Positions 10,004 through 11,910 of a stretch of 11,910 bases of DNA are shown here, one piece after another; within the stretch, counting starts at the first letter, position 1, and each line of letters starts with the position of its first letter. The notes under the pieces were generated by a model. The model was not told where the DNA came from and made no database searches. It saw nothing but the letters and a program-made list of their open reading frames with translations. The stretch comes from an uncultured Elusimicrobia bacterium (GTDB taxonomy: Bacteria > Elusimicrobiota > Elusimicrobia > Elusimicrobiales > Elusimicrobiaceae). The stretch covers positions 1-11,910 of the forward strand of contig CALYRQ010000010.1 of NCBI GenBank assembly GCA_945483375.1, given 5' to 3'. The position numbers were made by a program, and so were the translations under genes.

Positions 10004-10747
10004 ATGACTATTCTCGCTAAAAAACCGCAGAGCATGACCGATAAGCCCATGCACTACTGCCCTGGTTGCGGCCATGGGATTGTGCACCGCTTAATGGGCG
10101 AAGCGTTTGACGAACTGAACATCGCGGACCGCGTTATCGGCGTGGCCCCGGTGGGTTGTGCGGTATTCGCCGATGATTACTTTACCTGCGATACGGTGCA
10201 GGGCGCGCACGGCCGCGGCCCGGCCATCGCCACGGGCATTAAACGTTGCAAACCCAGCGCCATCGTGTTTTCGTACCAGGGCGACGGCGATTTGGCTTCC
10301 ATCGGTATGGCTGAAATCGTACACGCCGCCGTCCGCAGCGAAAACATCACCGTCATTTTTATCAATAACGCCATTTACGGGATGACCGGCGGCCAAATGG
10401 CCCCGACCACGCTCGTCGGCCAGGTGGCTACCACCGCCCCCAAAGGGCGCGACCCGAAACTGCAGGGCTGGCCGATTAACATGTGCGAAATGCTCGCGCA
10501 GATTACCGGTTCGAAATACTTGGAACGCGTGGCTGTAGATACGCCCCAAAACGTAATGAAAGCCAAAAAAGCCATTAAAAAAGCGTTTGAAAACCAGGTA
10601 AAAGGCGTAGGGTTTTCCATGGTGGAAGTTTTATCTCAATGCCCGACCAACTGGCACGCCAGCGTGCCCCAGGCCCTGGAATTTGTACGCACCAAAATGA
10701 TGCCGCAATATCCGCTGGGTGTATTTAAAGACGAGGGGGCCAACTAA
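10004..10747 (+). CDS. 2-oxoacid:ferredoxin oxidoreductase beta subunit (TPP-binding)
   Basis: This 247-residue subunit binds thiamine diphosphate and an iron-sulfur cluster. CPGCGHG (19-25) opens the fold, and the TPP motif runs from GDGD (93-96) to NNAIYGMTGGQ (121-131). Cysteines C19, C22, C52 and C213 (in QCPTNWH) are placed as in cluster-binding beta subunits of this class. A strong AAAGGAGG at 9986-9993, inside the end of the alpha gene, supports the ATG at 10004 over the in-frame ATG at 10034. It would be called KorB or VorA depending on substrate. Its TAA shares its last base with the gamma start (TAATG), so the two are translationally coupled. Confidence 0.93.
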   Translation: MTILAKKPQSMTDKPMHYCPGCGHGIVHRLMGEAFDELNIADRVIGVAPVGCAVFADDYFTCDTVQGAHGRGPAIATGIKRCKPSAIVFSYQGDGDLASIGMAEIVHAAVRSENITVIFINNAIYGMTGGQMAPTTLVGQVATTAPKGRDPKLQGWPINMCEMLAQITGSKYLERVAVDTPQNVMKAKKAIKKAFENQVKGVGFSMVEVLSQCPTNWHASVPQALEFVRTKMMPQYPLGVFKDEGAN

Positions 10748-11283
10748 TGTACCAAGGTATCAGAATCGCCGGTTTCGGCGGACAGGGTGTTATTTCCGCG
10801 GGTATTTTGCTCGCGCAGGCGGGCGTGGAAGATAAAAAGAACGCCAGCTGGCTTCCTTCCTACGGCCCCGAAATGCGCGGCGGTACGGCCAACTGCTCGG
10901 TAGTGGTAACGGACGGCGAAGTATATACGCCGATAGTGTCTTCTCCTGATACGGTGATCATTATGAACGAACCGTCGCTGCCTAAATTTGAGCCGCTCCT
11001 CAAAAAAGGCGGCCTGATGATTATTAACAGTTCGCTGATTAATTCCCGCCCGACGCGTACGGATATTAAGGTCGTGTGCGTGCCGTGCAACCAAATTGCC
11101 GAAGGGCTGGGGATGGACCGCATTGCCAACTTGGTGGCTTTGGGTGCGTTTATTAAGCTGACGGGCGCGGTGACGTTAGAGAGCGTGGCCGACGCCATGA
11201 AGAAAGTGTATAAACGCGCGAAACCTGAGATGTTGGAGCTGAACAAAAAAGCGCTCCAAGCGGGCTTTGACGCAGTGAAATAA
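10747..11283 (+). CDS. 2-oxoacid:ferredoxin oxidoreductase gamma subunit
   Basis: This 178-residue protein starts with IRIAGFGGQGVISAGILLAQ (about 5-24), the glycine-rich signature of the gamma domain, followed by SYGPEMRGGTANCSVVV (about 38-54). It completes the four-part enzyme and is the last gene of the operon, overlapping the beta stop by one base. The order delta-alpha-beta-gamma is the same as in the epsilonproteobacterial oorDABC type. A 33-base inverted repeat lies 27 bases after its stop. Confidence 0.93.
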   Translation: MYQGIRIAGFGGQGVISAGILLAQAGVEDKKNASWLPSYGPEMRGGTANCSVVVTDGEVYTPIVSSPDTVIIMNEPSLPKFEPLLKKGGLMIINSSLINSRPTRTDIKVVCVPCNQIAEGLGMDRIANLVALGAFIKLTGAVTLESVADAMKKVYKRAKPEMLELNKKALQAGFDAVK

Positions 11284-11310
11284 CGGCTGTTGTTAACTTT
11301 TGTAATACGC

Positions 11311-11343
11311 ACGAAACGCAAAGAAATTTTCTTTGCGTTTCGT
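11311..11343 (+). terminator. likely terminator of the oxidoreductase operon
   Basis: ACGAAACGCAAAGAAA (11311-11326) and TTTCTTTGCGTTTCGT (11328-11343) are perfect inverted copies around one base, so the hairpin has a stem of about 14 pairs with a small loop. Only a weak T-rich tail (TTGCTTATT) follows, so termination could be partial. The symmetry would serve either strand. Confidence 0.65.
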
Positions 11344-11376
11344 TGCTTATTAGGGCCAACAATTTGCTAAATTCTA

Positions 11377-11395
11377 AGCCGTGCCAACCCCTTAT
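11377..11395 (+). repeat. left arm of a perfect 19-bp inverted repeat
   Basis: AGCCGTGCCAACCCCTTAT is exactly reverse-complementary to 11628-11646. The arm ends inside a TATAAT hexamer (11393-11398). Confidence 0.95.
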
Positions 11396-11627
11396 AATGC
11401 TCCGTGCGTTTGTGTTTGCCAGCCACACAGACAAGGCGTAAAAACGCAGGCGGTGTAACCACCGTCAAGTTTTTATAACACCGTTCTGGGTGGCTGGAAA
11501 GCCAAACCCAGCGGGCCGCTGATCCTTTGGGCTAATGTTTTATTTTTTTGCTTGTGCTTGCGATAGCAAACCCTGCGCAAAAGAAATAAAACCTCGCCTG
11601 CAAAGGTCAAAGCGGCGCACAGGCAAG

Positions 11628-11646
11628 ATAAGGGGTTGGCACGGCT
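11628..11646 (+). repeat. right arm of the 19-bp inverted repeat
   Basis: ATAAGGGGTTGGCACGGCT, the exact reverse complement of 11377-11395, 232 bases away. No convincing target-site duplication flanks the pair. Confidence 0.95.
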
Positions 11647-11910
11647 ACTTGTGTGTCTCTCGGCCTTGACGTGGCTACAGCCACGCCGAGTGGCGGCCCG
11701 CAGGGTGCTGACTAGCCTGCATAATCTAAGGCGAGTTTAACAAATCAGGCAATCTGCTACAGTGTTATTCTGCTTTGTACGGCATTTTCTATTTGCCGTC
11801 ATTTCCGGGAGTAGCAGCCGGGAATCTCCCGCTTATTTGTCTTTGTTGTTTGGCCAGGCCTTAACCCGTCTACAAAATCCGTTCCGCAGCGGACAAGCGC
11901 GATATCTGTC
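11647..11910. other. non-coding tail with further hairpins; no gene seen
   Basis: No plausible start with an open frame is present. Hairpins continue: CTCGG/CCGAG (11659-11663 with 11686-11690) enclosing CGTGGC/GCCACG (11670-11675 with 11680-11685, loop TACA, one-sided bulge 11664-11669); GCAGG/CCTGC (11700-11704 with 11716-11720); and ACGGCA/TGCCGT (11779-11784 with 11794-11799). The first two may belong to the same RNA as the 11377-11646 structure. The last 80 bases show nothing I can assign. Confidence 0.5.
11798..11830. repeat. short REP-like palindromic repeat, copy 2
   Basis: GTCATTTCCGGG (11798-11809) and CCGGGAATCTCCC (11818-11830) form an imperfect palindrome and share the GTCATTTC...GGAATCTC frame with 1671-1702. 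This copy is more symmetrical (TTCCGGG facing CCGGGAA), so it is probably nearer the parent form. Confidence 0.45.

Follow-up and report, generated by a model that had tools for sequence, protein, structure and literature searches.

A four-armed palindromic repeat behind a porG-like gene of an uncultured Elusimicrobia bacterium, probably a non-autonomous mobile element of the MITE kind

The locus

The window (the whole stretch of DNA analysed, 11,910 nucleotides) corresponds to the entire contig C10 from an incomplete Elusimicrobiaceae genome (1.10 Mb in 201 contigs, 76% complete). Its last gene, 10747..11283 on the plus strand, encodes a pyruvate ferredoxin/flavodoxin oxidoreductase domain (PF01558) and is the gene we take to be porG. 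Downstream lies a 270-nt four-arm palindromic element (11377..11646, plus strand), which is separated from the contig end by 264 bases and has a homologous fold in the related locus L003. An earlier note on this DNA described these 270 bases as gene-free, and indeed the stretch 11284-11910 contains no likely gene; two mechanical ORFs on the minus strand (153 and 93 aa) extend into the left part of the element. At its boundaries, the element has TA at 11375..11376 on the left and at 11646..11647 on the right, where the T is shared with the last base of the closing helix; the empty-site case described below is comparable.

By DNA similarity, the element is single-copy in its own genome, where it interrupts a second, abundant repeat. 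The 5' part of this outer repeat (11281..11374, plus strand) starts at the porG stop codon and includes, by eye, a terminator-like hairpin at 11311-11344; the 3' part, split off by the element, is 11648..11787 (plus strand). Uninterrupted, element-free copies of the outer repeat are present in the same genome and continue after four or five bases. A comparison of 11284-11910 with the genome of the window yields 43 matches on 21 contigs, including the match of the window to its own sequence and multiple hits to the palindromic terminator, and the outer repeat is matched in 4 of the 6 genomes searched. Generally, its copies start at gene stop codons, followed by a variable terminator hairpin and then by a long hairpin whose variants appear to be compensated.

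The fold of the window copy

The earlier note proposed a perfect 19-bp closing helix, and this helix (P1, 11377..11395 paired with 11628..11646, plus strand), which forms the terminal inverted repeat, is present. No other perfect inverted repeat in the window with arm starts within 300 nt is as long; in 20 mononucleotide shuffles, such repeats reach at most 14 bp. The plus strand of 11377-11646 has a minimum free energy (MFE) of -136.8 kcal/mol (z -9.22), which was equalled by none of 200 shuffles.

Comparison with homologs, discussed below, gives the interior as a helix, a long arm, a mini-hairpin and a second long arm, all on the plus strand. P2, from a two-sequence consensus, pairs 11398..11407 with 11617..11625; the P3 arm, with an inner hairpin at 11435-11479, spans 11408..11507; a conserved mini-hairpin of the form CCC-nnn-GGG (11507..11515) occupies the P3/P4 junction; and the P4 arm (11515..11616) has the base GCCGC/GCGGC and an A/T-rich top at 11537-11592. 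The helix 11537-11592 had been identified correctly in the earlier note. The hairpin placed there at 11593-11627 is not part of the consensus structure: its summed internal pairing probability is 0.0 bases, and 22.0 of the 35 bases are paired elsewhere, their partners being located in the 5' strands of P4 and P2, so that the claimed end-to-end arrangement of the inner helices and the closing helix does not hold.

An Rfam search of the window detects only a tRNA elsewhere, and the element matches no Rfam family; at E values up to 10, there are five weak hits, all far under their cut-offs. A search of 12 further element loci with the Rfam covariance models gives none at the gathering score.

Distribution and conservation of the element

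A DNA search of 101 genomes identifies matches in three, namely the window's own genome, G042 and G026. In G042, the element is interrupted by the ends of three contigs (two on the 5' side, one on the 3' side), which implies at least two copies. The G026 copy (L003) folds alike (z -8.31), with a 19-bp closing helix of different sequence; in the two-sequence alignment with the window copy, both sides have changed in 25 of the 79 consensus pairs. A model of the P4 arm (R1) detects the element in 17 of 90 genomes of the family, in three of six genera. A second P4-arm model (R2), built from 29 copies and with 10 candidates scored per genome, extends the range within the phylum to 37 of 340 genomes, representing 11 of 100 genera and two families (f1 and f21; these and the genus labels used here are assigned by software). 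In eight of the 37 genomes (G036, G042, G045, G118, G122, G124, G129 and G298), the best E value is only 8e-6 to 2e-4, and two of the 11 genera (g16 and g77) depend on such weak hits; one of the eight, G042, contains the near-identical pieces at the DNA level. The copies are dispersed, with 13 places in G116 (several of them at contig ends, so that one copy may count twice), five in G011 and 10 in G293 (10 candidates scored).

The earlier note proposed a multi-branch fold, to be tested for compensatory changes, and the comparison supports a genuine, conserved fold with such changes. In the alignment of 29 copies (A4), 91.6% of the cells are paired, and 109 cells are changed on both sides, compared to 35.7 for shuffles and 10-23 for slid partners; this alignment was fitted to the structure of the model and is accordingly biased in favour of that structure. 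From end to end, 56 copies from 23 genomes could be delimited, and these keep the fold while the sequence of the closing helix varies. Most are 266-276 nt long (the automatically assigned ends give up to 308 nt where flanks are paired by chance); a shorter class, 185-205 nt in length, is missing most of P3, and a single copy measures 233 nt. Together, P1 and P2 form a helix that reaches about 30 bp. The sequence of P1 varies freely while its pairing is kept: the 56 copies contain 51 distinct arm pairs, and each of the 19 positions shows 4-6 pair types and is paired in 42-51 of the 51. The arms of G004, G296 and G297 appear poorly paired in this count due to misplaced automatic ends (G296 was read separately). 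Among the 45 hits submitted to delimitation, seven had too little upstream sequence. The set of 56 leaves out G036, G121, G114:C7 and G262, for which the ends were not found, the contig-cut copies G293:C29, G295:C70 and G295:C58, and a second reading of G106:C75. Both strands of the latter copy fit the model (with 44.0 and 38.8 bits), so that it appears to be almost identical to its own reverse complement.

The window copy has no match in phage and plasmid records; among viral contigs, 16 stretches contain a 17-base pattern, none of them convincing in R2 (best 20.6 bits, E 0.016). The published literature on repeats, MITEs and structured RNAs of the phylum, as far as a weak, open-access search covers it, does not describe the element; the part of PMC11257099 seen deals with Endomicrobia genomes and annotates IS and CRISPR.

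Insertion sites and remnants

A copy in G293 lies between two genes, and the same junction is empty in G295 (201/222 bases, 82% identity). The empty site reads GTTTAGGTTAAAAT, and the filled site reads GTTTA-element-TAGAGGTTATAT. The TA of the stop codon of the upstream gene occurs once in the empty site and twice in the filled site, where the first G of the element restores TAG; 460 open codons end there. The simplest reading of these sequences, from this single orthologous empty site, is an insertion with duplication of TA or TAG, next to a 2-base length difference beside the junction. According to the earlier note, many copies with target-site duplications would point to a transposable element; the many copies are indeed found in relatives, and the one place compared with an empty site fits a duplication. 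Taken together, the dispersed copies, the preserved length and fold, and the filled and empty versions of one orthologous place make the element look mobile.

In genera g75/76, TA is found at both ends in 14 of the 15 assessed copies (the exception is G293:C51), whereas the boundary rule is irregular in f1 (genera g1, g12 and g15). A stop codon coincides exactly with the boundary TA in five of 26 copies of f21 and g12. Searching 66 porG loci of relatives (seven with less than 400 bases after porG) gives no R1 match above 14 bits. L036, which is among the closest relatives, retains, by eye, the start of the outer repeat and a terminator after porG.

G293 contains 28 occurrences of the end pattern TAGRGYGTGTYNACA and G295 contains 39, while the reversed control is absent from both genomes. 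Among these sites, there are eight head-to-head end pairs, each a 22-bp palindrome, as well as remnants of 56, 56, 58 and 91 bp. Such short remnants are to be expected if a palindrome loses its inside. The palindromes at L234, L235, L247 and L248 (e.g., TAGGGTGTGTCGACACACCCTA) are apparently element ends joined head to head. An older event seems to be represented by G106:C112 and G108:C1, both of the short form, which have both flanking genes in common (86.4% and 85.5% amino-acid identity). Of their 58 shared pairs, 39 are identical, one shows a one-sided change and 18 show two-sided changes. The two look like a single old shared insertion, the alternative being independent insertions at the same place.

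Structured RNA or mobile DNA

The conserved arms could also be explained by a functional structured RNA, located in a 3'-UTR, between cistrons or as a free small RNA, that spreads as well but is under selection at the level of the transcript, as has been suggested for some repeats in the Bacillus cereus group. Both the internal arms and the CCC/GGG mini-hairpin are conserved, which is compatible with this explanation, and so is gene orientation: among copies outside g12 with a called 5' gene, 33 of 39 run in the direction of that gene, a strand bias not required of an element that acts at the DNA level alone, although in g12, 9 of 11 copies run antisense to it. These counts take plain ORFs of at least 90 codons within 800 bases as genes (six of the 56 copies have no called 5' gene) and include copies nested in outer repeats, which are not independent insertions. 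The plus-strand RNA gene favoured in the earlier note nevertheless finds no support so far. Its argument from wobble pairs, for which the three named positions are indeed G and T, has been dropped as evidence for RNA because it fails to discriminate even for RNase P RNA: G-T and A-C appositions inside helices number 96:84 distinct contexts in the element (p 0.41) and 92:78 in the RNase P control (p 0.32). A comparison of the MFE of the two strands does discriminate, with the plus strand of RNase P more stable in 25 of 30 cases, and here the element scores only 28 of 56 (g82/84, 5/5; g15, 8/12; g75/76, 9/15; g1, 4/13; g12, 2/11), or 33 of 56 in favour of the gene strand once the g12 copies are turned to the strand of the flanking gene. 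The g82/84 copies, all five of which follow a codirectional gene and fold better on the plus strand, are in line with RNA; the model matches of G106:C75 on both strands and the remnants, which retain little beyond P1, are not. When pair changes are counted, the one-sided/two-sided ratio is 0.28 for 17 hand-picked element pairs and close to the 0.34 of 30 random RNase P pairs, a similarity that would fit an RNA but helps neither side; after this control, the scarcity of one-sided changes was abandoned as an argument. On balance, the RNA explanation appears rather unlikely, albeit one to be reckoned with.

Other possibilities invoke specific enzymes. The earlier note saw a resemblance to a retron msr-msd, with a closing a1/a2 helix, short hairpins and a long hairpin, the reverse transcriptase being lost or located off the contig. 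The order of the helices and the end of the contig 264 bases downstream would fit such a unit. The RVT_1 domain, however, is present in 14 of 90 genomes and in only three of 17 R1 carriers (in one of the three below the cut-off), being absent from the window's genome (76% complete), from the 99%-complete G116 and G011, and from G114; with no RVT_1 in 14 of 17 carriers, the retron was rejected as hardly credible. An element of the IS200/IS605 or REP/RAYT kind, single-stranded hairpin DNA moved by a Y1 transposase, would account for hairpin-rich, gene-less and mostly intergenic copies. Nonetheless, Y1 is found in 23 of 90 genomes but in only five of 17 R1 carriers and is missing from G116, G011, G114 and G000, without correlation with the carriers, and the long inverted repeats at the termini, together with TA on either side, agree better with a TIR element, so that mobilisation by Y1 is very improbable. 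Enzymes of the IS630 and IS4/5 types were considered as well and rejected, with DDE_3 in none and DDE_Tnp_1 in one of 25 carrier genomes. No gene-bearing copy was detected between end repeats of G293/G295 in the 20 stretches looked at.

These observations are best compatible with the segment being one copy of a non-autonomous, mobile, MITE-like palindromic DNA element, with a four-arm fold conserved across the phylum, and we consider this reading probable. The element has the hallmarks of MITEs, i.e., terminal inverted repeats, no coding capacity and multiple dispersed copies. Counting against this reading, no transposase has been found among the Y1, DDE_3 and DDE_Tnp_1 families searched that tracks the element, the TA rule is irregular in three genera, and the internal arms are more conserved than one would expect of an ordinary MITE. 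A bolder version, which we regard as unlikely, is a mobile class specific to the phylum that consists of the conserved four-arm fold alone, inserts at TA, now and then within stop codons or other folded repeats, and is moved without a known kind of transposase, by host replication or repair or by an enzyme that reads the fold.

As to the mechanism of the MITE-like element, a trans-acting enzyme would recognise the long terminal inverted repeat P1, along with, perhaps, an extruded hairpin or cruciform, cut at TA and leave a TA duplication. Because the element begins with G or A after TA, insertion in TAG or TAA would restore the stop and presumably do little harm. The window copy may have inserted into an abundant repeat that was already present behind porG. 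The arms might be kept paired by self-correction of hairpins during replication, by selection on the fold, or by both.

Relationship to known repeats

Several known systems show partial resemblance to the element. TA-targeting transposons with MITEs include IS630/Tc1-mariner and the IS5/IS427 group. Their MITEs share with the element terminal inverted repeats, the lack of a gene and TA on both sides (for the element, with one empty-site case); the element differs in the conservation of its internal arms, in the near absence of the DDE_3 and DDE_Tnp_1 domains from its carriers, and in that the G293/G295 sites looked at include no gene-bearing copy. Palindromes of the ERIC/REP/RUP type are extragenic and often located near gene ends, as are copies of the element, which is longer and four-armed; the comparison of sequences covers Rfam and the phage and plasmid records only. 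The usual view of mobile palindromes is that each derives from a single transposon in a single species and is short-lived. Here, a single architecture of about 270 nt persists over two families, and insertions, nested insertions and remnants can be seen; most of the genomes concerned lack the four enzyme families that were searched (RVT_1, Y1, DDE_3 and DDE_Tnp_1). Two questions can thereby be put to the test: by what means an element without a gene is moved, and whether its pairing is kept by correction of DNA or by selection.

Another parallel is offered by the interspersed repeats bcr1-bcr18 of the Bacillus cereus group. According to the part of PMC3446304 seen, bcr1-3 are called MITE-like, about half of the copies are transcribed, and bcr10 and bcr18, with conserved structure, are proposed as RNA elements; bcr1 is also treated in PMC2267715, likewise seen in part. 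As far as these excerpts describe them, the bcr repeats resemble the element in being repeated and intergenic; they differ in phylum and sequence, whereas the element is one four-arm fold of about 270 nt over two families.

Neighbouring repeats and other loci

Some further loci show the element, or similar hairpins, next to other repeats. In G011:C15 and in both G026 copies, the element is located, by eye, within related outer repeats but in different segments of them, which are expected to be unpaired. At L117, L126 and L130, A/T-rich hairpins similar to P4 give weak model hits and are possibly unrelated terminators; those at L117 and L126 follow, by eye, an ABC-transporter-like gene. In several g1 and g15 genomes, the element lies beside tRNA genes, with the 3' end of the tRNA recurring on the far side; L104, L108, L109, L110 and L112 combine the element and other hairpin repeats adjoining tRNA genes (by eye). 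At these sites, the break falls in the T-loop, as in integrase attachment sites, the recurrence at L110 being only partial (by eye). In g82/84 (L222-L226), the element is contained within a larger conserved unit, in five of five cases behind a codirectional gene.
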